A DNA stretch of 64,000 nt, taken from NCBI RefSeq assembly GCF_004364125.1, contig NZ_SNZV01000003.1:310001-374000 (forward strand). Direction: 5' to 3'. A program made the position numbers and the translations under genes. Below the pieces are notes generated by a model. The model was given only the letters and a program-made list of their open reading frames with translations. It ran no database searches and had not been told where the DNA came from. Origin of the DNA: Sphingobacterium paludis. Lineage in GTDB: Bacteria; Bacteroidota; Bacteroidia; Sphingobacteriales; Sphingobacteriaceae. Shown piece by piece: positions 35,981 to 49,039 of the stretch (position 1 is the stretch's first letter; each line of letters starts with the position of its first letter).

Positions 35981-36046
35981 TTCGTCTAAAAAAAGACCTG
36001 TTTCATCGAAAAAAAAAGCGATAAAGCCATGTGCAACCTACTTTTA
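35981..36046 (+). promoter_or_regulatory. Candidate LytTR operator and promoter, site A
   Basis: Half-sites ttcgtctaaaaa (35981) and ttcatcgaaaaa (36002) start 21 bp apart. A -7-like box, tactttta (36039-36046), starts 37 bp after the second half-site and matches TAnnTTTG with one change. The first RiPP gene starts 46 bp further on. The same layout occurs at sites B and C. Confidence 0.72.
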
Positions 36047-36551: not shown

Positions 36552-38846
36552 ATGAGCATCTTTAGAAGCAAATTTAAGTTTTACAAGCAATTGGACTATA
36601 TGGATTGTGGTCCAACTTGCTTGCGCATGGTATCCGCTTACCACGGAAAGGAGTATGATTTAGATTACCTGCGAGCCAATTCCTATATTACGAAGAACGG
36701 CGTAAGCATGCTTGGACTGAGTGAGGCTGCCGAAAAAATAGGATTTAAAACAATCATTGCAAAATTAAGCTTTGAACAACTATCGGAGCAAGTACCTTTA
36801 CCCTGTGTGCTCCATTGGAACCAAGAGCATTTTGTTGTTCTTTACGACGTTGAAAAAAAGAATCTATTCCGAAAAACCGAAAAGTTAGTGCTGGGCGACC
36901 CGGGGCATAATCTTATTCGGCTAGAGCGAAAAGTTTTTGAGAGTTGCTGGCTAAGCGCCGACAACAAAGGGGTAGCATTATTGTTAGAGCCTACACCATC
37001 TTTTTATGAGGACCAAGAGGAACATGCGAAAAAGAACAAGGGATTTCGCTTTTTGATCTCTTACCTGAAACCGTATAAGCAATACTTTACGCAATTGATT
37101 CTGGGCATGTTGCTCGCCAGCCTGATTAGTATGTGCTTTCCATTTTTAACGCAAAGTTTGGTTGACTTCGGGGTGATGAGAAAGAAAATAGACTTTATAC
37201 ATCTCATCTTACTATCACAGCTTTTGTTGTTCATGGGCGGGATAGCGGTCGATTTGATCAGAAATTGGGTGCTGCTCCATGTTAGCACACGCATAAGCAT
37301 CACGATTATTTCCAATTTTTTGATCAAGCTGATGAAGTTGCCCATTAATTTCTTCGAATCAAAAAATGTGGGTGACATCACCCAACGAATCAATGACCAT
37401 CATCGTATAGAGACCTTTCTTACGGGTTCAACGCTTAGCACATTGTTTTCCGTTATCAATTTAATTGTGTTTTCGGTTATTCTAGCGATGTATAACCCGC
37501 AGTTGCTGTTTATTTTCGCGATTGGTAGTGCCCTCTCTATACTGTGGATATCCATCTTTTTACGCAGACGCCGCGATATAGATTACAGTAGATTTCAGCG
37601 CTCTCGAGAGAATCAAAACAGCCTGTTCGAGATTATAACAGGCATGCAAGAAATAAAACTTTATAACAGTCAAAAGACAAGACGATGGGAATGGGAGCGT
37701 GTTCAGGCTAAGCTTTTTAAAGTAAATATACAAAGTCTTGCACTAGAGCAATATCAAGAGATAGGCGCCACCTTCTTTACCCAGCTAAAGAATATCATCA
37801 TCAGTTACGCTGCTGCAATGCTTGTTATCAATCAGGAAATTTCTCTCGGCGTGATGCTGAGTATATCCTACATTATTGGCCAGATGAACAGCCCGTTAAA
37901 CCAGATTATCCAATTTATCAAAGGCATTCAAGATGCGAAAATAAGCTTAGATCGTTTGGGAGAGATACATGAAAGGCCAGAGGAAGATTCGGAAGACGAC
38001 CTGATAGGATATAATGAGAATAATTTTCCACGCATGCCGCAAGAGAAATCCGAAGCGCTTTTCTTGAACCATTCCCGTTTCTTAAAAAATATTAGAGATG
38101 AAAAGGGAGGGATTACGATTTCGAATCTTTCCTTTCAATATGGATCGCCGAAAAGTCCGATGATTCTAAAAAACCTCTCTATGCATATTCCGAAAGGTAA
38201 AATAACAGCGGTCGTTGGAGCGAGTGGAAGCGGAAAGACGACATTGATGAAACTTCTTCTGAAGTTCTACCCAATCACGATGGGAAATATCTACGTCGAT
38301 GGGGTGAACTTACAAGATATATCGGCACAGCTCTGGCGAAACAATTGCGGAACCGTTATGCAAGAAGGTTTTGTTTTTTCGGACTCTATCACGCGAAATA
38401 TTGCTGTCGATGGCGACCGGATTAAGGAAGAGCAGTTTTACGATGCCGTCCGGCTAGCCAATTTAGAGGAGGATATCGCGCGTTTGCCGTTAGGTTTTTC
38501 TACCCGCATAGGAAATTCGGGTTCGGGGTTAAGCGGCGGACAAAAGCAACGATTGTTTATCGCGCGTGCAGTCTATAAGGACCCCAAGTTTTTATTTTTT
38601 GATGAAGCCACAAGTGCGCTTGATGCAAACAATGAAAAGATCATTATGGAAAACCTGGATGAGTTTTACAAGGGAAAAACCGTTTTTGTAATTGCACATC
38701 GTTTAAGCACGGTGAAAAACGCCGATCAAATCATTGTGATGCATAAGGGTGAAATCGTGGAACAAGGAACCCACGAGGAATTAGTGAAAAATAGGGCGTA
38801 TTATTTTGAATTAGTGAAAAATCAATTGGAATTGGGCGCCGCTTAA
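36552..38846 (+). CDS. Peptidase-containing ABC exporter (C39, LanT-like)
   Basis: A 764-residue bacteriocin-type exporter. Residues 1-130 are a C39 peptidase: Q13, catalytic Cys19 (MDCGPTC), His93 (HWNQEHFVVLYD) and Asp116 (LGDPG). Six transmembrane segments follow at about 180-460. The ATPase domain has Walker A GASGSGKTT near 556-564, signature LSGGQKQR, Walker B FLFFDEATSALD and a switch His in VIAHRLSTV. It removes GG leaders and exports the core across the inner membrane. Located behind the precursor-like genes and 11 bp ahead of an HlyD-like adaptor, it forms the export unit of the RiPP locus. Confidence 0.95.
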   Translation: MSIFRSKFKFYKQLDYMDCGPTCLRMVSAYHGKEYDLDYLRANSYITKNGVSMLGLSEAAEKIGFKTIIAKLSFEQLSEQVPLPCVLHWNQEHFVVLYDVEKKNLFRKTEKLVLGDPGHNLIRLERKVFESCWLSADNKGVALLLEPTPSFYEDQEEHAKKNKGFRFLISYLKPYKQYFTQLILGMLLASLISMCFPFLTQSLVDFGVMRKKIDFIHLILLSQLLLFMGGIAVDLIRNWVLLHVSTRISITIISNFLIKLMKLPINFFESKNVGDITQRINDHHRIETFLTGSTLSTLFSVINLIVFSVILAMYNPQLLFIFAIGSALSILWISIFLRRRRDIDYSRFQRSRENQNSLFEIITGMQEIKLYNSQKTRRWEWERVQAKLFKVNIQSLALEQYQEIGATFFTQLKNIIISYAAAMLVINQEISLGVMLSISYIIGQMNSPLNQIIQFIKGIQDAKISLDRLGEIHERPEEDSEDDLIGYNENNFPRMPQEKSEALFLNHSRFLKNIRDEKGGITISNLSFQYGSPKSPMILKNLSMHIPKGKITAVVGASGSGKTTLMKLLLKFYPITMGNIYVDGVNLQDISAQLWRNNCGTVMQEGFVFSDSITRNIAVDGDRIKEEQFYDAVRLANLEEDIARLPLGFSTRIGNSGSGLSGGQKQRLFIARAVYKDPKFLFFDEATSALDANNEKIIMENLDEFYKGKTVFVIAHRLSTVKNADQIIVMHKGEIVEQGTHEELVKNRAYYFELVKNQLELGAA

Positions 38847-38857
38847 AAAAACAGAGT

Positions 38858-39586
38858 ATGCCAAGATTAACGCAAGCATTAGAAAGCGTCAGCAACGAGA
38901 TGGACGAAATCGTTGGTCGCATTCCGCCATGGATCGTACGTTGGGGTATAACCGTATTGTTCGGGGTCGCTACCATTAGCTTATTTATATCCGGCTTCGT
39001 GCGCTTTCCGGATTCTATTGTCGGCACAGTAGTCATCCAAGCGAAGGAACAACCCGGGAAAGTCACTGTACGCAGAGAAAGCGCGAATGAAGAATACAAA
39101 TTTCTGGTCAAGGAAGGAGATCGGGTAAAACCTGGCGACACATTGCTGTTAAGAATAGAAAAATCCGAGAATAAAATATCTCCCGTAACCACGCCGATGA
39201 CGGGTTCGATTTATAGGGTAAGCAGTCGAAATACAGACGGTCTTTTAGAAGAAACAATCTGGGTGGTTCCCATAGCCACAGGGTTTCATATGAAAATCAA
39301 TTATCCAAACAAAGGAGCAGGGAATGTGCAACCTGGGCAGCAGGTACGTATCGCCCTGCATGATTACCCAGATGCCGAGTATGGCTTTCTGGACGGCATC
39401 ATCGAGTCCATCCTGCCTATACAGACTGATGATAAACATCAAGCGACTATTTCTTTAATCCACAATAAACTATTAACTTCACGGGGAAGAGAAATACCCA
39501 TACTCCCCTTAATGGAGGGCAGTGGCGAGATACTACTCAACGAAAAAAGTATTTTCTACCGCATTTTTGGTAGCATCCTGCAGTAG
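38858..39586 (+). CDS. Short HlyD-like membrane-fusion adaptor
   Basis: A 242-residue protein with one transmembrane segment at about residues 32-53, then a periplasmic part with a lipoyl/barrel-sandwich pattern (GTVVIQAKEQPGKVTVRRES, FLVKEGDRVKPGDTLLLRIE, TTPMTGSIYRVSS) and a beta-barrel-like segment (GFHMKINYPNKGAGNVQPGQQVRIAL). The long helical hairpin of ordinary HlyD/LanT partners is missing, which is why it is shorter than usual (about 400 residues). It likely pairs with the C39 exporter. Confidence 0.82.
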   Translation: MPRLTQALESVSNEMDEIVGRIPPWIVRWGITVLFGVATISLFISGFVRFPDSIVGTVVIQAKEQPGKVTVRRESANEEYKFLVKEGDRVKPGDTLLLRIEKSENKISPVTTPMTGSIYRVSSRNTDGLLEETIWVVPIATGFHMKINYPNKGAGNVQPGQQVRIALHDYPDAEYGFLDGIIESILPIQTDDKHQATISLIHNKLLTSRGREIPILPLMEGSGEILLNEKSIFYRIFGSILQ

Positions 39587-39611: not shown

Positions 39612-42600
39612 GTGTTTAAAGATTTCGGAAGGTTATTACTTAGGCGTCCTATTTTTACATATGATACCTTATTTGAACCGCAAGGAACCACGCGTTCCCT
39701 GCAGGAGCTCGTTGTCGAAAAGTTAAGCGATGATGTCTTTATGGAGAGCCTGCATTGGGCTTCGCCAGATCTCTTCGATCAGGCCATTCGTTTGCGACAA
39801 AATAAGATCCCACCAAACAAACAAGCAAGAATCCTTCATAGTTTAAAAAAGTATGTCGTGCGTGCTTGTTCGCGATCTACTCCTTATGGAACCTATGCTG
39901 GCTGCAATGTGGTACACTTAGGGGATGGAAATCAAGCGGTTACTTCACATAAAAATCGACATGTACGCCTGGATATGCAGGTGCTGTTTCAACTGCTTCG
40001 ATCGATAGCGAACAACGAAAGCTTACGGCCAATCTTGCGTTATCAAGTTAACAACTCTGTTTATTTGGTTGGAGATGCTTATCGTTATTTGGAGACACAA
40101 GTGACAAATGGACAATTGAACTACCAAATAGCCTCCTTTCAGCGAGATGATCTGCTTGATAAGCTATTAGCCAGCGTTAAAAAACAGCCATGCACACAAA
40201 CTGATCTTATTCATTTCCTTGATGATCGCTATTCGTTAGCTGAGCGTAAAGCCTACACAGACGAACTTATTCGTGCGGATTTTTTCGTTGCTGATGTTAT
40301 GTCGATTTTAACGAGTAAAGATCCAATCTCAAAACTACAAGCGTTCCTCCTCGCCGTGGATAAAGTATCTTCCGGTGCCGCGCATCCATACCTATTGTTC
40401 CTGCAGCTATGTCAAGAGACCATGGAAAAACTGGCCGATTATCCACTTGGAAAAATTCCGTCCCACGACATCGACGCATGCTTACAGTCCCTGCAAGAAT
40501 TAGCTATCACGACAGAAACGAAAAACCTATTCCAAGTTGACTTGTCTCATCCAGCCGCAACAACAGACATTTCCCCAACGATCGTTAAAAATATCCAACA
40601 GGCCATGGCTGTTTTGGCGAAATTAACACCTTCAGAATCGAGCCACGAACGCAGAATAGCAAGGTTTAAACAACTTTTTGTCGAAAAGTATGGTGATCAA
40701 TCTGTTCCTTTGATGGAAGCTATAGACGTGGAACTTGGTATTGGCTTTCCTGCGCAAGCAGCGTTGGGCACGGCAGCGTTTAATGAGATGGCAGACAGTT
40801 TGTCCAAATCTGGGGGGAAGGAACGGCCACTTCCAGAAAAATCGCTCGGCGCGATCGAAATTTGGCTACAGGAGCAGCTTAGAAACGCCTTGGAAAATGG
40901 CGAAACGGAAATTAGACTTTCGCCCGCGGCGTTGGAACAATTTGAAAGCCAACTTCCGAAATTACCACAACAGATCGCTGTTATGGGGCTATTTTTGGCA
41001 AACAATCAGCTGCTGCTTCAGAGTGTTGGCGGGGCGAATGGACTCTCGCTTTTGGGACGTTTCGGCTATATGAACGATGAAATTACTGCCCTGTGTAGCG
41101 ATATTTCCGCGGCCGGGACGGACACCGCCCAGATACATGCCGAAATCCTGTTCTCACCGGAGGGGCGGACGGCGAATATTGCAAGAAACAACGATATTTT
41201 GGCATATAAAATACCTTACCTTACTTACCTTTCCGGTCAAGAAGGGAAAAATATCGCCGTTGACGATCTTTATATTTCTGTAAAGAGGGATCGATTATGC
41301 CTATTTTCCAAAAGCTTAAACAAGGAAGTAAAGCCCTACCTTACACATGCCCATAACTATATGTTGAGTGAGGTTCCTCTCTACCGTTTTTTAGCATCGA
41401 TCCAGCATCAACAAAAAATCGGTCTGCACCTTCATTGGGGAAATTGGTCTAATTGGTTGCGGTTTATCCCGCGCATGACGGTTGGAAATGTTGTGCTGCA
41501 AAAAGCTACCTGGCAAATCAAGGCCGATGAAATAAAAAACATCAAGCGTGCCGATAATCCATTTGCACGGCTAAAGGAAGCGCTGACGCTGTGGAAACTT
41601 CCACGATTTATTTGCTTGGTGGAAGGCGACAACGAACTTTTTATCGATACGGACAATGAGGAGTATCTCGCGCTATTACTACATGAGCTTAAGCCACAGT
41701 CCGCGGCCAAACTTGCTGAATGGCTCTTGGACGAACCCAATACAGCGTCATCAAACAACTATGTGCAACAGTTCATTTTGCCGTTAAGCCGGCCAGAAAA
41801 GAGCCCGGTTAACAGCTATCATGCAGATAGCGAAGACGAAAGCATACAACGCGTTTTTTTTCCAGGTAGCGAATGGATGTATGTCAAGATTTATTGCGGC
41901 GCTTATGTTTCGGATCAGCTGCTGGTTAAGGTCATTCAAACACTTACCGACTCGCTATTGGTCAGTCGAAAGGTAGATCAATTCTTTTTTATCCGCTATA
42001 ATGATCCACATTACCATATCCGTCTGCGTTTGCATCTTCCTGCCGGGGTAGCGGCTGTATCATCCGGGCAAATATTGCAAGAGCTTGACAGCCTGTTGGC
42101 ACCCTATCTGTCGACAAGAATGGTGTGGAAAGTGCAGTTAGATACCTACCAGCGCGAAATTGATCGGTATAGCAGCAGCGCCATGTTGGCTAGTGAGCAG
42201 GCCTTCTTTCATGATTCTGTAGCTTTTTTAGCCATTTTGCAAGAAGAAGATATCTTCGAAGATGATCGGGCACGGTTTTATGGCTGTTTGCAAAATATAG
42301 ACAATTGGTTACTTTTGTTTGGTCTCGCTATGGAAGATCGTCGAAACTTCTGTGCTAAGATGGCAAAAGCTTTTTCTTACGAATTTGACAAAGAAACAAA
42401 TCGACAGATTGATGATCGATTTCGGGCAGAGGAGCAGGATTGGAAAGACATCTTGGGCGGCACGGAGCAAACCTCCGCTATCTTGACCAAACGGAACACG
42501 GCATTAGCACCCTTGGACTTACCGCTAGAAAATCTTTCCAGTTATATCCATATGAGTATCAATCGCTGGTTTAGCAGTAACCAACGATTACTCGAGTTTA

Positions 42601-42662
42601 CGCTTTACAAATACGGTGAAAAAATATACAATCAGCTGATGTATCGCCATGATCACAAATAA
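39612..42662 (+). CDS. Class I lanthipeptide dehydratase (LanB)
   Basis: A 1016-residue, full-length LanB. The N-terminal glutamylation domain has RSTPYGTYAGC at about 88-98, the family's RSTPFGLFAG-like signature. The C-terminal elimination (SpaB_C, thiopeptide-type) domain begins near 750, with EWMYVKIYCGAYVSDQLL, DQFFFIRYNDPHYHIRLRLHL. It should use glutamyl-tRNA(Glu) to turn Ser/Thr of the precursor into dehydroamino acids. The start is GTG at 39612; the frame is closed by TAA at 39588, so no ATG is available in frame. It overlaps the kinase gene by 14 bp. No LanC is seen beside it. Confidence 0.93.
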   Translation: MFKDFGRLLLRRPIFTYDTLFEPQGTTRSLQELVVEKLSDDVFMESLHWASPDLFDQAIRLRQNKIPPNKQARILHSLKKYVVRACSRSTPYGTYAGCNVVHLGDGNQAVTSHKNRHVRLDMQVLFQLLRSIANNESLRPILRYQVNNSVYLVGDAYRYLETQVTNGQLNYQIASFQRDDLLDKLLASVKKQPCTQTDLIHFLDDRYSLAERKAYTDELIRADFFVADVMSILTSKDPISKLQAFLLAVDKVSSGAAHPYLLFLQLCQETMEKLADYPLGKIPSHDIDACLQSLQELAITTETKNLFQVDLSHPAATTDISPTIVKNIQQAMAVLAKLTPSESSHERRIARFKQLFVEKYGDQSVPLMEAIDVELGIGFPAQAALGTAAFNEMADSLSKSGGKERPLPEKSLGAIEIWLQEQLRNALENGETEIRLSPAALEQFESQLPKLPQQIAVMGLFLANNQLLLQSVGGANGLSLLGRFGYMNDEITALCSDISAAGTDTAQIHAEILFSPEGRTANIARNNDILAYKIPYLTYLSGQEGKNIAVDDLYISVKRDRLCLFSKSLNKEVKPYLTHAHNYMLSEVPLYRFLASIQHQQKIGLHLHWGNWSNWLRFIPRMTVGNVVLQKATWQIKADEIKNIKRADNPFARLKEALTLWKLPRFICLVEGDNELFIDTDNEEYLALLLHELKPQSAAKLAEWLLDEPNTASSNNYVQQFILPLSRPEKSPVNSYHADSEDESIQRVFFPGSEWMYVKIYCGAYVSDQLLVKVIQTLTDSLLVSRKVDQFFFIRYNDPHYHIRLRLHLPAGVAAVSSGQILQELDSLLAPYLSTRMVWKVQLDTYQREIDRYSSSAMLASEQAFFHDSVAFLAILQEEDIFEDDRARFYGCLQNIDNWLLLFGLAMEDRRNFCAKMAKAFSYEFDKETNRQIDDRFRAEEQDWKDILGGTEQTSAILTKRNTALAPLDLPLENLSSYIHMSINRWFSSNQRLLEFTLYKYGEKIYNQLMYRHDHK

Positions 42663-43785
42663 CGAACTGTCATTACTATATACCAAACCCCAAATTCGGA
42701 TAAGCATTCACCTGCTTTTTTGGGGATGTGTATTTATTTTTCTTTGTTTTTTTAACCACCTCCCTTTATTCAATACCACGTCATTCAGCCGAATCAGCCT
42801 GCTCTCTAATGCGACATTTCTGGTCGCGATCATCCTGAACCATTACTTCTTTTTTATCATAATCCTCCCATTAATCCGGCGGAAAAAATGGCTGTTGCTA
42901 TTTTTGGCAGTTGTTTCTGGCTACATAAGCAGCATCTATTTGGCTACCGTCCCGCTATGGATTTCCCAGATGGCCTACCCGGACAACAAAGCCTACCTCG
43001 CTAAACTCAACTTTTATGGCGTCCGCTCGTGGAGCGACCTGTTCTCGTACGGCCCCATGATCTGGGCCTTCACCACGATATTCTTTTACAATTTTGCCAC
43101 CATTTTATTAAAAACAGCATTAGACTTTTATAAGAGCCAGCGTGAAAAGTTATCCGCACAGAAAGAACGCAATCTTATGGAACTTCACTTCCTAAAAATG
43201 CAGATCCAACCCCATTTTCTGTTCAATACGCTAAATAATATCTACGGCATGGTTATCGACAACGAGTTGGCGGCCAACTCCATAACTAGGCTTTCCGATT
43301 TACTGCGTTTTTCTATTACAGGATCAAAAAAAGACTGGATTTTGTTGAAAGAAGAAGTGGGTTTTCTGACAGACTACATCAATCTGGAGAAAATTAGGCA
43401 TAAACCCGAAAAGCTTAACCTAGAAGTCGACTTTCATCATGTATCGGAATCGGAGCTGAAAATTCGGCCGCTACTGCTCATTAATTTTATAGAAAATGCT
43501 TTTAAACACGGCGTGAATGCCAGTGCATCAACATCATGGGTTACAGCTTCTCTTGTCGAAAAGGATGGTTTGCTCAAGTTTATCGTTCGAAATAGTAAGC
43601 CGGTAATCGTTCCGAAAGATAAAAAAGAGGACGAACGGAGGGTGCTTCGCCATACGCACGAGGGCGGCATTGGCTTGATCAATGTGCGGCGCCGCTTAGA
43701 ATTGGAGTACCCCGAAAAGCATACACTATCAAGCCGGGAAACAGATACGGAATATTCCGTAGAACTTGTTTTGGATCTTAGGTAG
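42649..43785 (+). CDS. LytS-type sensor histidine kinase
   Basis: A 378-residue membrane kinase. Four hydrophobic segments fill the first 160 residues; a coiled coil follows, then the His_kinase domain with His189 in MQIQPHFLFNTLNNIYG and a GHKL ATPase (LINFIENAFKHGVN, GGIGLINVRRRLEL). It should phosphorylate the LytTR regulator encoded 36 bp downstream. No periplasmic sensor domain is evident, so the signal may be a membrane component or the peptide itself. It overlaps the lanB gene by 14 bp, tying regulation to the biosynthesis operon. Confidence 0.93.
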   Translation: MITNNELSLLYTKPQIRISIHLLFWGCVFIFLCFFNHLPLFNTTSFSRISLLSNATFLVAIILNHYFFFIIILPLIRRKKWLLLFLAVVSGYISSIYLATVPLWISQMAYPDNKAYLAKLNFYGVRSWSDLFSYGPMIWAFTTIFFYNFATILLKTALDFYKSQREKLSAQKERNLMELHFLKMQIQPHFLFNTLNNIYGMVIDNELAANSITRLSDLLRFSITGSKKDWILLKEEVGFLTDYINLEKIRHKPEKLNLEVDFHHVSESELKIRPLLLINFIENAFKHGVNASASTSWVTASLVEKDGLLKFIVRNSKPVIVPKDKKEDERRVLRHTHEGGIGLINVRRRLELEYPEKHTLSSRETDTEYSVELVLDLR

Positions 43786-43821: not shown

Positions 43822-44544
43822 ATGAACGTATTGATTGTTGACGACGAACCTATTGCACAAGAAATTCTAAAGAAGCTGGCAGCACGCGTTTCATTTATCG
43901 AAGTGATCGGCTGTTGCGATAATGCTATTTCTGCGCTGGAATTTATCAATACTGCCAACCCAGATTTGATATTCTTGGATATCCAGATGCCCGAAATGAC
44001 CGGCGTAGAGATGCTTTCTATGATGGAACGACGAGGTGCTCAGGTGATCTTTACCACAGCCTATCCGGAGTATGCGATAGATGGGTATGCGCTAGACGCT
44101 ACCGACTACTTATTGAAACCCATTCCGTTTGACCGTTTCCTAAAAGCAGTGAACAAGGCGCATATACGCTTCAAAAACAGCCAGCAATTCAACACAAAGC
44201 CCGACCAAGCACATGTCGATATGGACAGCATTTGGGTTAAAGAAGGAAAACGATTGGTACAAATTTACCTGAAAGATATTGTCATGGTGAAAGCGATGGC
44301 AGACTACATGGAGTTTGTTATGCTCGACTCCCGTGTCATTGTACATGTCACCATGTCAAAACTGGAGGAGCTTTTGCCAACGCCAACATTCCTGCGGGTT
44401 AACCGCTCATGCATTGTCAAGTTATCGGCAATCCGTTCTATTCAAGATTTACAGATCGAAACAATTTTACCAAAAGAACCTAGAATCTCTATCGGTGCCA
44501 CTTATTGGGATTCTGTTAAATCTCATTTCAAAGAATTGTTTTAG
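43822..44544 (+). CDS. LytTR-family response regulator
   Basis: A 240-residue regulator. Receiver domain residues 1-120: acidic VDDEP at 6-10, phospho-acceptor Asp53 (IFLDIQMPEMTG), TTAYPEYAIDGY and KPIPFDRF with the conserved Lys. LytTR DNA-binding domain at about 138-240 (IWVKEGKRLVQIYLKDIVMVKAMADYMEF, FLRVNRSCIVKLSAI). LytTR domains bind direct repeats about two turns apart, which fits the three 21-bp-spaced operator pairs found in this locus. Expected target of the LytS-type kinase. Confidence 0.95.
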   Translation: MNVLIVDDEPIAQEILKKLAARVSFIEVIGCCDNAISALEFINTANPDLIFLDIQMPEMTGVEMLSMMERRGAQVIFTTAYPEYAIDGYALDATDYLLKPIPFDRFLKAVNKAHIRFKNSQQFNTKPDQAHVDMDSIWVKEGKRLVQIYLKDIVMVKAMADYMEFVMLDSRVIVHVTMSKLEELLPTPTFLRVNRSCIVKLSAIRSIQDLQIETILPKEPRISIGATYWDSVKSHFKELF

Positions 44545-44548
44545 CCAT

Positions 44549-44614
44549 TTCATCGAAAAAAAAGGGCCTTTAGTCGAAAAAAAGCCTCCCGGGTCTTTAC
44601 GTCTGGTAGTTTAG
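44549..44614 (+). promoter_or_regulatory. Candidate LytTR operator and promoter, site B
   Basis: Half-sites ttcatcgaaaaa (44549) and ttagtcgaaaaa (44570) are 21 bp apart. A -7-like box, tagtttag (44607-44614), starts 37 bp after the second half-site (one mismatch to TAnnTTTG). It controls the Cys-less precursor gene starting 29 bp after the box. Confidence 0.75.
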
Positions 44615-44642: not shown

Positions 44643-44780
44643 ATGAACACCAAACTAAACTTGAAAAAGAAGATCGTCGTAAAATTGACTAAAGAAACAG
44701 GTAGCAAAAATGCTTTCGGGCGAACAACGACGGGCACTGTGAGCGAAACCGTTTCGGGAACCATAGTATTCAATCAGTAA
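44643..44780 (+). CDS. Cys-less class I lanthipeptide-like precursor
   Basis: A 45-residue peptide behind its own operator B and ended by a hairpin. The first part, TKLNLKKKIVVKLTKE, looks like the leader of Bacteroidota class I lanthipeptides (KLxLKKxTIAKL). The C-terminal half is packed with hydroxy residues: Thr28, 29, 30, 32, Ser34, Thr36, Ser38 and Thr40, eight in thirteen positions. There is no cysteine, and no GG site. LanB could dehydrate these residues, but no thioether ring can form within the peptide. It may therefore become a linear, dehydrated peptide, or serve another job. Confidence 0.78.
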   Translation: MNTKLNLKKKIVVKLTKETGSKNAFGRTTTGTVSETVSGTIVFNQ

Positions 44781-44871: not shown

Positions 44872-44937
44872 TTCATCGAAAATAAAAGTCCGTTCGTCTA
44901 AAAATATACCCTCAAATTGCTTTTACCTATTTCTTTG
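44872..44937 (+). promoter_or_regulatory. Candidate LytTR operator and promoter, site C
   Basis: Half-sites ttcatcgaaaat (44872) and ttcgtctaaaaa (44893) are 21 bp apart. A -7-like box, tttctttg (44930-44937), starts 37 bp after the second half-site (one mismatch to TAnnTTTG). The receptor gene starts 35 bp after the box. Confidence 0.72.
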
Positions 44938-44971
44938 AAATACGTTACCGAGATACTTAAATCTGATATTG

Positions 44972-47359
44972 ATGAAGCGTTTACTAGCACTCTTTTTTAT
45001 TTTCCTTGTCACTGAGAAGTGTAGTCTAGCGCAAGAGAGCCGAGTGCGGGGGAAAGTGCTTAGTTTACATGCACAAGACATCGCTTTTGCGTCTGTGCGC
45101 TTATCAGCAGAGGCGCCAACGGCGGGACGTCAGGACCTAGGGATGGTAAGCAATGAGAGCGGTGAATTTACCTTTGACAAAGTACCTAACGGTGCCTACG
45201 TCCTCCAGATCAGTATGGTCGGTTATAAACCTTTGGAAAGAAGCCTTCAGATCCTAAAGGACACCATTCTGCAAGATCTGTATTTGGAGCTAGAGGGCAC
45301 CTTACTCGAAGAAATCACGGTAACCCATAAGAAACCATTGGTAAGCCGTTTAGTAGACCGTTATGTCTTGAACGTTGGTGAAAGTATTCTTTCGTCAGGA
45401 CGTTCGACTTTCGAGCTATTAAAATATGCTCCCGGCGTAATGGTCAAGGGTAGCCAGATCAGCATCAACGGAAACACATCAACCAAGGTGATGGTGAACG
45501 GCCGACTATTGAGGCTTAGCGGAGATCAGCTCCAAAATTACCTCGCTACGCTCCGCTCGGAAGACATTGCCTCCATTGAAGTTGTTCCAAATCCAGGGGC
45601 AGAATATGAAGCGGAAGGCAGTGGTGGCCTTCTGGACATAAAGTTAAAAAAGGGTACAAAATCAGGGTGGAACGGCACCATCGGTCTCGGCGCAACAACA
45701 CCGATTTGGCCAAGCTACAACGGAAATACACAGTTGAACTACGGCGGCGAGAAATTGCAAGCCTATGGCAGCTATAACTATACGCAGCGAGAAGCCGATG
45801 CCACTTTCGGAGACCGGCGTTTTGCTGACCAAAGCACCTACCAAACGGATAGTGAGACCGCATATAAAAACAGAGCGCATAATGTGCGCTTGGGCACCAA
45901 CTATGCCATCAATGATGCGCATACCGTGGGGCTGGAATACAACGGCAGTTTTAATGACGCGAAAAGCCAAACACAGTCCAGCGCAGTATTAAACGATTTG
46001 CGCAACAACCGGTTCAATACTATCTCGGGTGATTTCAATACCGACAATAGGAATCGCTTTAATAATGTTTCTTTCAATTACGATTGGAAGATGGATACGC
46101 TAGGCACTACGCTTATTTTCATCGGCGACTATACCAGTCTGTCGAGAACGTCGGGCGCTAATTTTCTATCCCGATATACCGATCAGGGGAACAATTTTCT
46201 ATTTGACTCCCTTTACCGAAATGCTATACCAACTGATATCGAGAACTATAATGTATCCGCCGACTTTGCCAAGAAAATAGGGGGCCGCGGACAGTTGAAA
46301 GCCGGGCTAAAATATACCAAGACGAATACTGTAAATGATGTCCTTTATGAATATTGGGACAATGATGGGTATGTGAAAGACGAGGAAAGAAGCAATACGT
46401 TTGATTACCAGGAAGAGATATTTGCGGCGTATGGGCAATACGGGTTTTCGTTGGATAAATTTGCTTTCCAAGCGGGTCTTCGTGTAGAAAAGACGCGTTC
46501 TGAAGGAAACTCTGTAGGCCTGTCTACATTCAACCGAGATTATTTGGGTCTATTTCCTTCTATGTATGTTAAATACGATCTCCATCAAAATCACTCCTTG
46601 GCGCTGCGCTATAATAGACGTTTGGAACGACCCACGTTTAACATCCTTAACCCTTTTGAATGGCGAACGGATGATTACACCTATGTTTTAGGAAATCCGG
46701 GTCTTAAACCGCAATACACCAATGCCATCAACCTGTCGTATCAGCTTTACAAGCAATATGATCTTACGTTCTTTACATCACTCCTGGATGGGACGTTCGG
46801 GTCGCTACTGAGTGACGAGCCGTCAAATGGCCTCATTAGCCGATACCGTTGGCAAAACTTAGATCGCGGATATATGTATGGAGTCAATATTTTCGCTCCA
46901 ATAACCGTAACAAAATGGTGGAGCATGACTAACAATGCTCTTGTTTACCGTCATCAATTGGAGTACGCGGGGCTACGTAATAACCGCACAATCTTCGAAG
47001 GAAAGAGCACGCAGCTTTTTAACTTCAAAAACGACCTCACGATTGAGCTTAGTGGGTATTATCAATCGCGGTATATCATCGCAAACCTCGTTTATGTGCC
47101 AAACTATTCCGTTGATTTTGCCATCAGCAAAGCCTTTTTCAACAAAAAATTACAAGTGCGCGGCCTTATTACAGACATCTTCAATAACGACCGCATGGAC
47201 TATAACAGTGTTACCGAAAATTTGCAGCTACAGGCTTATCAGAAATACCTGACGAGGCGCTTTTCGGTCAACTTGATCTACAATTTCAGTTTGGGCAAAA
47301 AGGTGAATGTCAAAAAAGTACAATCCGGCAATACGACGGAACGAAATAGGATGAATTAA
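44972..47359 (+). CDS. TonB-dependent-receptor-like outer-membrane protein (OMP_b-brl_3 type)
   Basis: A 795-residue outer-membrane protein with a signal peptide (LLALFFIFLVTEKCSLAQ-ES). An N-terminal CarboxypepD_reg-like domain (about 23-105) is followed by a plug-like domain around 110-225 (FELLKYAPGVMVKGSQISING, VVPNPGAEYEAEGSGGLLDI) and a 22-strand-like barrel ending in ...RFSVNLIYNFSLG. This fits the OMP_b-brl_3 outer-membrane receptor group. It sits under operator C, so it is coregulated with the peptide genes: it may export the peptide, import it for sensing, or give immunity. The ATG at 44972 follows an alternative TTG. Confidence 0.92.
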   Translation: MKRLLALFFIFLVTEKCSLAQESRVRGKVLSLHAQDIAFASVRLSAEAPTAGRQDLGMVSNESGEFTFDKVPNGAYVLQISMVGYKPLERSLQILKDTILQDLYLELEGTLLEEITVTHKKPLVSRLVDRYVLNVGESILSSGRSTFELLKYAPGVMVKGSQISINGNTSTKVMVNGRLLRLSGDQLQNYLATLRSEDIASIEVVPNPGAEYEAEGSGGLLDIKLKKGTKSGWNGTIGLGATTPIWPSYNGNTQLNYGGEKLQAYGSYNYTQREADATFGDRRFADQSTYQTDSETAYKNRAHNVRLGTNYAINDAHTVGLEYNGSFNDAKSQTQSSAVLNDLRNNRFNTISGDFNTDNRNRFNNVSFNYDWKMDTLGTTLIFIGDYTSLSRTSGANFLSRYTDQGNNFLFDSLYRNAIPTDIENYNVSADFAKKIGGRGQLKAGLKYTKTNTVNDVLYEYWDNDGYVKDEERSNTFDYQEEIFAAYGQYGFSLDKFAFQAGLRVEKTRSEGNSVGLSTFNRDYLGLFPSMYVKYDLHQNHSLALRYNRRLERPTFNILNPFEWRTDDYTYVLGNPGLKPQYTNAINLSYQLYKQYDLTFFTSLLDGTFGSLLSDEPSNGLISRYRWQNLDRGYMYGVNIFAPITVTKWWSMTNNALVYRHQLEYAGLRNNRTIFEGKSTQLFNFKNDLTIELSGYYQSRYIIANLVYVPNYSVDFAISKAFFNKKLQVRGLITDIFNNDRMDYNSVTENLQLQAYQKYLTRRFSVNLIYNFSLGKKVNVKKVQSGNTTERNRMN

Positions 47360-47728: not shown

Positions 47729-49039
47729 ATGAAAAACAGTCAATTTAACTACTTCCTGAAGTATGATAGTAACACCGTCCTTTTTAATACCTTGACGAGC
47801 AGACTTGTGCTGATGGACCCCTTGCTGGAAAATTTATACCAGGCTGCGGTAGAAAATGAAGAGGTAGCTGCGCTAAAAGCGTATCACGAGACGTTTTACG
47901 ATCATCTTGAAAAAAATCGCTTTATCGTTGACAGTGGGTTCGACGAGGTCGAGCAAGTCAGGAAGATCATGAACACCATCGACAACGATGATAGCCGCTA
48001 TTACCTGATCATCAACCCCACGATGAACTGTAATTTTAAATGCTGGTATTGCTACGAATCGCATATCAAAGCATCGAAAATGGATGAAAACACCGTAGAG
48101 AATATCTACAATCACGTCATCAATATCTTTAATGAAAATGATCGTATACGGCAATTGACAATCGGTTGGTTCGGTGGCGAACCGCTGCTCTACTTCGACA
48201 AATTGATGATCCCTATGATGGAAAAGCTCGGTGAGTTTTGTGCCGAGAGGGATATATTTTTCGATCAGAATATCACCACAAATGGATTCCTACTCCGAGA
48301 GGATATGATCCATTACTTCAAAAAATACAATCTCGGGCATTTTCAGATTACCTTGGACGGCAACCGTTTTGTACATGATACGGTACGTTTTGTTTCCAAA
48401 GCACGGGGGTCGTATGACGATATTCTGAACAATATGAAATTGCTCGTTCGTCATGCGCTTCCGGTCACTGCACGGATAAATTTTACCAAATCAAATCTGG
48501 ACGGTATTGAAGAGATTTACGATGATCTTCACGATATGAGCAGCGAAGAGCGGAAGTATTTTGATATCTCTTTCCATCAGGTGTGGCAAGAAACGGCTAC
48601 GGACCTGACCGATAGGCTGGACTATCTGATCAACTACTTCCGCGAACGAGGGATCACAACACGAGACGGAAATATTCCCAACAACCTTGTTGGTTCCTGC
48701 TATGCGGATAAGAAAAACCACGCGACAATAAACTATGATGGGAATGTGTTCAAGTGCACAGCGCGCGACTTTAACGAGACGAGCAGAGAAGGCATTTTGA
48801 ATGATGAAGGAAATATTATCTGGAATGAGAAATTTCACAGCAGAATGGATATCAAACTTCGGAATAAACCCTGCCATAGCTGTGGTATCCTTCCTTTGTG
48901 TAACGGGGGCTGTTCCCAGGTGGCCATAGAGGCTAACGGGGAAGATTTCTGTGTGTATAATTTTGACGAGGACAAAAAGCGAGAAATTGTATATAGAAAA
49001 GTGAAAGATATATTGCATAAACAAGCCGTTCCTGCCTAA
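47729..49039 (+). CDS. Radical SAM/SPASM peptide maturase
   Basis: A 436-residue enzyme. Residues 1-90 resemble the leader-binding (PqqD-like) region of peptide maturases (NYFLKYDSNTVLFNTLTSRLVLMDP). The radical SAM cluster motif is CNFKCWYC (Cys101, 105 and 108). The C-terminal SPASM domain has cysteines at about 324, 343, 382, 385, 391, 395 and 408 (CHSCGILPLCNGGC), enough for two more [4Fe-4S] clusters. It likely installs a thioether or C-C crosslink in the three-Cys precursor just upstream; the product cannot be told from the sequence. Confidence 0.92.
   Translation: MKNSQFNYFLKYDSNTVLFNTLTSRLVLMDPLLENLYQAAVENEEVAALKAYHETFYDHLEKNRFIVDSGFDEVEQVRKIMNTIDNDDSRYYLIINPTMNCNFKCWYCYESHIKASKMDENTVENIYNHVINIFNENDRIRQLTIGWFGGEPLLYFDKLMIPMMEKLGEFCAERDIFFDQNITTNGFLLREDMIHYFKKYNLGHFQITLDGNRFVHDTVRFVSKARGSYDDILNNMKLLVRHALPVTARINFTKSNLDGIEEIYDDLHDMSSEERKYFDISFHQVWQETATDLTDRLDYLINYFRERGITTRDGNIPNNLVGSCYADKKNHATINYDGNVFKCTARDFNETSREGILNDEGNIIWNEKFHSRMDIKLRNKPCHSCGILPLCNGGCSQVAIEANGEDFCVYNFDEDKKREIVYRKVKDILHKQAVPA

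Follow-up and report, generated by a model that had tools for sequence, protein, structure and literature searches.

A cysteine-free, Ser/Thr-rich peptide encoded beside LanB and a LytS/LytTR pair in Sphingobacterium paludis: a putative dehydrated product without lanthionine rings

We analyzed a stretch of 64,000 nucleotides of the Sphingobacterium paludis genome (contig NZ_SNZV01000003.1, positions 310,001 to 374,000), referred to here as the window; coordinates are positions within the window, and all features described lie on the plus strand. The locus starts with two precursor-like peptide genes with a GG motif, P1 (36092–36298) and P2 (36304–36516, encoding one Cys), followed by a C39-peptidase ABC exporter (36552–38846), an HlyD-like adaptor (38858–39586) and a full-length LanB dehydratase (39612–42662; PF04738 and PF14028). 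Downstream are a LytS-type histidine kinase (HK, 42649–43785; PF06580) and a LytTR response regulator (RR, 43822–44544; PF00072 and PF04397). A short gene (44643–44780) encodes a precursor-like peptide of 45 amino acids without Cys, and is followed by an outer-membrane beta-barrel protein (OMP, 44969–47359; PF14905), a GG-leader precursor-like peptide with three Cys (P3, 47406–47654) and the adjoining radical SAM/SPASM peptide maturase (rSAM, 47729–49039). The locus therefore holds four precursor-like peptides. LytTR-box-like repeats are located upstream of the genes from P1 to RR (35981–36011), the 45-aa peptide gene (44549–44579, a direct repeat with a 21-bp period) and the OMP-P3-rSAM genes (44872–44902), so that P1 and P2 beside the C39 exporter and P3 beside the radical SAM/SPASM maturase all stand behind the same kind of repeat. 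An earlier reading of this DNA, made from the letters alone (the sequence-only reading), omitted the kinase/LytTR pair, the repeats and the three further precursor-like peptides.

The expected activity of a LanB protein is the Glu-tRNA-dependent dehydration of Ser and Thr. The LanB of the window aligns with NisB (4wd9, E 8e-38) and with 9g04 (E 1.1e-54), and has kept the motifs RSTP, QVD, GRF, HIRLR, EIDRY and HMSINR, which have roles in NisB. Together with the matches to PF04738 and PF14028 this bears out the earlier statement that a full LanB with both domains is present. None of the ten locus proteins scanned against family models matched an azole-forming family, and general family-model scans of the locus proteins, which included no linaridin model by name, returned no linaridin maturation enzyme.

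The 45-aa peptide consists of a leader of approximately residues 1–20 (KLNLKKKIVVKL) and a Ser/Thr-rich core (residues 28–40). When recounted from the ORF, 8 of the 13 residues in this core are Ser or Thr and the entire ORF is free of Cys, both exactly as originally described. Taken alone, the Ser/Thr clustering is modest evidence against chance, as 642 of 20000 shuffled versions of the ORF reached it too. The leader fits exactly (L5, L7, K9, L15) the LxLxKx5L motif that the accessible part of a survey gives for Bacteroidetes class I precursors (PMC7268733). In its strict form this motif is found within the first 30 residues of 53 of 86 Cys-bearing precursor-cluster ORFs versus 9 of 3411 other small ORFs, the 45-aa ORF being one of the nine. 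When these 3411 ORFs were scored with a leader profile constructed from 41 segments taken from precursors with Cys, the 45-aa ORF came first (E 0.003), and the claim of a class I-like leader is upheld. Family-model scans of the ORF matched no model, including the NCBIfam leader model NF038153 at E values up to 1. The core does not contain a GG site for the C39 exporter.

A protein search with the 45-aa ORF in 301 genomes of the family, at E values up to 0.01, returned only the ORF itself and nothing in the other 300, and relatives therefore had to be identified by synteny next to LanB. Scanning named genomes with a single LanB query found no loci; with an alignment of four LanB sequences the scan gave 80 loci, the best 80 of 250 relatives. 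Twenty of these, with a LanB identity of at least 32%, form a clade of 22 with the window and a plasmid of Chryseobacterium sp. G0186 (LanB identity 33.7%); L150, L151, L152, L157 and L169 were treated as duplicates of L037, L036, L038, L048 and L039 and counted once. In a tree of 46 LanB sequences the 22 clade loci make up one side of a branch with a support of 100. They derive from Sphingobacterium, Pedobacter, Chitinophaga, Filimonas, Chryseobacterium and Pontibacter, and from one MAG.

All 22 clade loci encode a short peptide close to LanB, HK and the LytTR regulator, with a basic leader of the KLx[IL/V] type, and the search for the same peptide beside LanB in relatives thus found it in 21 other loci. 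In the nearest LanB relatives (L036–L039 and L048), the same kind of peptide directly follows the LytTR gene. An alignment of 19 clade peptides shows M1, K4, L5 and K9 of the window peptide to be invariant; the other three (L156, L167 and L194) were taken from a plain ORF list, that of L156 starting with GTG. Twenty of the 22 peptides lack Cys in the last 20 residues, the exceptions being two Pontibacter peptides with one core Cys each, and 15 of 22 lack Cys altogether. The leader in the clade appears to be a diverged form, since only 5 of the 19 peptides exceed the 95% level of decoys with the leader profile; a strong match to the classic profile is limited to the window ORF and the two Pontibacter peptides, and NF038153 matched one of the 19 (E 0.4). 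The reading frame is conserved: six nucleotide differences separate the peptide genes of L037 and L038, and five of them are synonymous changes at third positions. The peptide of the G0186 plasmid is annotated as a hypothetical protein (WP_262696649.1). A separate observation concerns the short peptide of L036 (1701–1811, identical to L151:13820–13930), which has the leader of its close relatives and an unrelated core, possibly reflecting a core swap; a frameshift was considered as its origin and rejected, since at the DNA level too the shared leader leads into a core unrelated to theirs.

A search of the whole genome for LANC_like proteins gave no match in the window (contig C3) and two matches elsewhere, on C11 and C6. 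The absence of LanC from the window and the locus, as asserted before, therefore stands, and does not extend to the genome. The C11 match (174.8 bits) lies in a separate locus, which also contains parts of LanB and a precursor-like ORF with two Cys. Whether this LanC is active is uncertain, because the three zinc columns of the alignment read A-C-S. The C6 match (L002) is weak (28.2 bits) and adjoins what appears to be a glycosyltransferase-like gene. The stretches examined around 21 of the 22 clade loci yielded no LanC gene; the 22nd, on the Chryseobacterium plasmid, has two LanC-like genes without zinc ligands in a neighbouring cluster.

We then considered LanB loci in general. The family sample comprises 89 LanB loci, namely the window, 87 loci of relatives and the C11 locus; the 88 fetched loci were hand-picked from the LanB matches listed and are not a random sample. 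LanB frames shorter than 880 aa were left out (L055 and L088 consequently have no row), which yields 95 LanB rows. A row was called TCS-linked when a kinase/regulator pair was present within 3.5 kb, and LanC was counted as nearby within 6.5 kb. LanC-like genes were found in 41 of the 89 loci. Among the 95 rows, 51 have a TCS without LanC, 30 LanC only, 9 both and 5 neither (Fisher p 7e-12, with rows that are not independent). The regulators beside the TCS-linked rows all have a LytTR-like C-terminus (60/60), and a zinc-intact LanC is near none of these 60 rows versus 24 of the 35 others; in all nine rows with both, the LanC-like protein is zinc-degenerate. These LanC-likes, each with an incomplete set of zinc ligands and close to LanB and kinase/LytTR genes, are at L041, L058, L070, L071, L076, L081, L087, L090 and L092. 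Independent pairs on the tree are 5 to 0 in favor of TCS without zinc-intact LanC (median p 0.0625), the small number of pairs putting strong significance out of reach. In the wider named set, where 7 of the 80 loci have no LanB frame of at least 880 aa and hence no row, a zinc-intact LanC is near 8 of 40 TCS-linked rows versus 28 of 36 others, and L134 is one more TCS-linked LanB with a zinc-intact LanC; four further stretches, fetched besides L128 and L132–L149, are in no tally. Because of these exceptions, the lack of a zinc-intact LanC at TCS-linked LanB genes is a strong tendency, absolute in the family sample only. The sequence-only reading had called a ring-less product unusual for a class I locus; for loci of the present kind it is not, as LanB with kinase/LytTR genes and no LanC accounts for 51 of the 95 rows in the family sample.

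Candidate peptides, partly picked by eye, were identified in 41 of 47 LanC-less TCS loci, and none in the remaining six. The last 22 residues are free of Cys in 35 of the 41 peptides and contain it in six; 21 lack Cys entirely (the L099 peptide has one, outside the last 22). A blind rule requiring at least eight Ser/Thr in the last 22 residues selected 23 of 384 small ORFs near these genes versus 12 of 661 farther off.

The direct repeat of the window consists of TTCRTCGAAA twice with a period of 21, and occurs exactly three times in the 64 kb. Nineteen sites were found in 1.79 Mb versus none in 40 shuffled 20-kb stretches, a figure that is after the fact because the consensus was derived from those same sites; the L039 repeat alone, compared with shuffles, gives p of about 0.14. 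The repeat precedes the peptide in 7 of the 22 clade loci, i.e., all six sampled from the family of the window and Chitinophaga sp. CF418 (L194). Two loci of another clade, L068 and L069, have it in the same position. At the set threshold none was seen upstream of the peptide in the other 15 clade loci or upstream of most peptides in other clades. LytTR sites are known to have a characteristic spacing, and as the repeats share this spacing, we infer that the LytTR regulator binds them. Kinase and LanB distances are correlated (r 0.86, and r 0.53 among pairs with less than 40% LanB identity).

Our best-supported reading is that of a predicted dehydrated product without lanthionine rings, as had been suggested: the relatives keep the gene, its position and a mostly Cys-free core (20/22), and no LanC was found around 21 of 22 clade loci. 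LanB would bind the basic KLx[IL]xKK leader of the 45-aa peptide, glutamylate Ser and Thr of the core using Glu-tRNA, and subsequently eliminate glutamate to yield several Dhb/Dha residues. As the core has no Cys and the locus no cyclase, lanthionine would not be formed, leaving a product that is linear or crosslinked in another way and may be exported. The LytS/LytTR pair would control the 45-aa peptide gene, its own operon (with putative limits) and the OMP-P3-rSAM genes through predicted binding to the shared direct repeat. In its entirety, with the 45-aa peptide as the main LanB substrate, a Dhb/Dha-rich, ring-less product and this regulation, we regard the model as probable with a good measure of doubt.

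The comparison of loci shows the ORF at 44643–44780 to be a real gene. Since the gene, its position and the upstream repeat are conserved, we exclude that it is a chance reading frame, a view that would be very hard to maintain. The lack of any family model or of a protein match in the other 300 genomes would fit a chance frame, as would the weakness of the Ser/Thr clustering by itself, but relatives occupy the matching position in all 21 other clade loci, synonymous substitutions are seen, the gene has its own upstream repeat, and the relative on the Chryseobacterium plasmid is annotated as a protein. It is unlikely, on the present comparison, that LanB modifies P1 or P2 instead, with the 45-aa peptide as an unmodified regulator or by-product. 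P1 and P2 directly precede the exporter and LanB genes on the same strand and were found in 16 of 22 clade loci (P3 in 12), P2 of the window combines its Cys with several Ser/Thr, and their GG sites suit the C39 exporter. Against this, P1, P2 and P3 were not found in six of the seven Chryseobacterium loci (L128, L160, L162, L164, L166 and L167; some of these stretches end at contig ends), which retain LanB, HK, RR and a small peptide of the 45-aa type; this makes the 45-aa peptide the most likely substrate of LanB in the locus. Its leader, not that of P1 or P2, is also the top match to the class I leader profile, and in other clades (e.g., L042 and L049) peptides of a similar kind accompany LanB, HK and RR where no exporter was seen. 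At L166, no exporter of the C39 kind was found in the 17.8 kb examined.

A ring-less 45-aa product would also be altered if its dehydro-residues were later joined to Lys or His of the peptide, to Cys of P2 or P3, or to a thiol introduced by LanC-like proteins from other loci, which we consider rather unlikely. The LANC_like genes on C11 and C6, the Cys residues in P2 and P3, and, in other clades, the zinc-degenerate LanC-likes close to nine TCS-linked LanB rows would provide the means for such a step. The LanC of C11, on the other hand, sits in a locus with LanB parts and a precursor-like ORF of its own, and the stretches examined around 21 of the 22 clade loci gave no LanC-like gene.

Linaridins are linear, dehydrobutyrine-rich peptides, and the predicted 45-aa product would likewise be linear and rich in Dhb; to our knowledge they are made by other enzymes without LanB, unlike the present locus, which has one. 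In the thiopeptide and goadsporin pathways, LanB-type dehydration takes place without LanC, and azoles are formed as well. Nisin (NisRK) and agr are examples of peptide autoinduction via two-component systems, the agr regulator being of the LytTR type; the window similarly brings together the genes for a peptide, its putative modifying enzyme, a kinase and a regulator, and sensing of the peptide is a prediction. Dehydrazoles reportedly also combine LanB-type dehydration without LanC with azole formation (PMC10676384); dehydration without lanthionine rings would be common to the window and these three groups, whereas none of the ten scanned locus proteins matches an azole-forming family. Bacteroidota class I lanthipeptides, with examples from Chryseobacterium and Runella (PMC9993889), share with the window a full-length LanB, the leader type and often C39 exporters, and differ from it in core Cys, LanC and the lack of a dedicated LytS/LytTR pair, as far as the accessible text of both papers goes (PMC7268733; PMC9993889). 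For other Bacteroidota LanB enzymes, co-expression with the native tRNA-Glu and GluRS in E. coli reportedly increased dehydration (PMC9993889). The locus would correspond to the initial half of a class I lanthipeptide pathway, and it lacks two defining features of that family, LanC and core Cys.

A class I dehydratase is generally taken as one partner of a pair that forms rings, and genome mining that requires LanC or Cys would miss peptides such as those near the 51 LanC-less TCS rows and the nine more with zinc-degenerate LanC. The 2020 survey, in the parts accessible, linked precursors to LanC genes and omitted some Cys-less precursors, so that loci of the present kind were probably outside it (PMC7268733). 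Bacteroidetes genomes with several LanB genes, only some near a LanC, are mentioned in available passages of PMC3091789, and LanC-like genes without LanB in Bacteroidales in those of PMC10352776. As far as these passages tell, earlier surveys noted LanB without nearby LanC, apparently not the kinase, regulator and peptide (PMC3091789). Our search of titles and abstract openings, with most subscription papers outside reach, found no description of Bacteroidota loci that combine LanB, a LytTR pair and Cys-less peptides. The same gene beside the same LanB and sensor-regulator pair in relatives points to an overlooked kind of modified peptide, which, if dehydrated, would be a source of Dhb-rich peptides.

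As peptide, kinase and regulator form a loop, a signalling role is invited, and the 45-aa product under its dedicated two-component system is perhaps a signal; an antibiotic role is equally open. The linked kinase makes the signalling role directly testable. It is conceivable, if doubtful, that LanB, LytS kinase, LytTR regulator and a Ser/Thr-rich peptide without core Cys constitute a widespread four-gene module of Bacteroidota that makes lanthionine-free dehydrated pheromones, the modified peptide acting through the kinase that senses it to turn on the peptide's own gene and additional RiPP operons. If this is true, Bacteroidota would possess both a new class of RiPP and a route of quorum sensing by peptides.

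Several other arrangements were observed. L110, L118, L122 and L123 have two LanB genes, of which one adjoins a radical SAM gene and lacks a kinase pair in the surrounding 3.5 kb; a peptide was not identified at these loci. Two more peptide clusters (11 and 9 loci; examples are L061:11802–11945, L065:7625–7768, L060:7843–7992 and L108:12024–12200) are not of the KLxL leader type and have Ser/Thr-rich ends near a LanC-less LanB. At LanB loci without LanC, short peptides with Thr-rich ends (such as TTTETVTTNTVTG) are encoded divergently from the kinase gene at L084:12081–12233, L085:9004–9174, L114:8807–8980, L119:10994–11161 and L077:13545–13742; L084, L085, L114 and L119 contain two LanB genes each.
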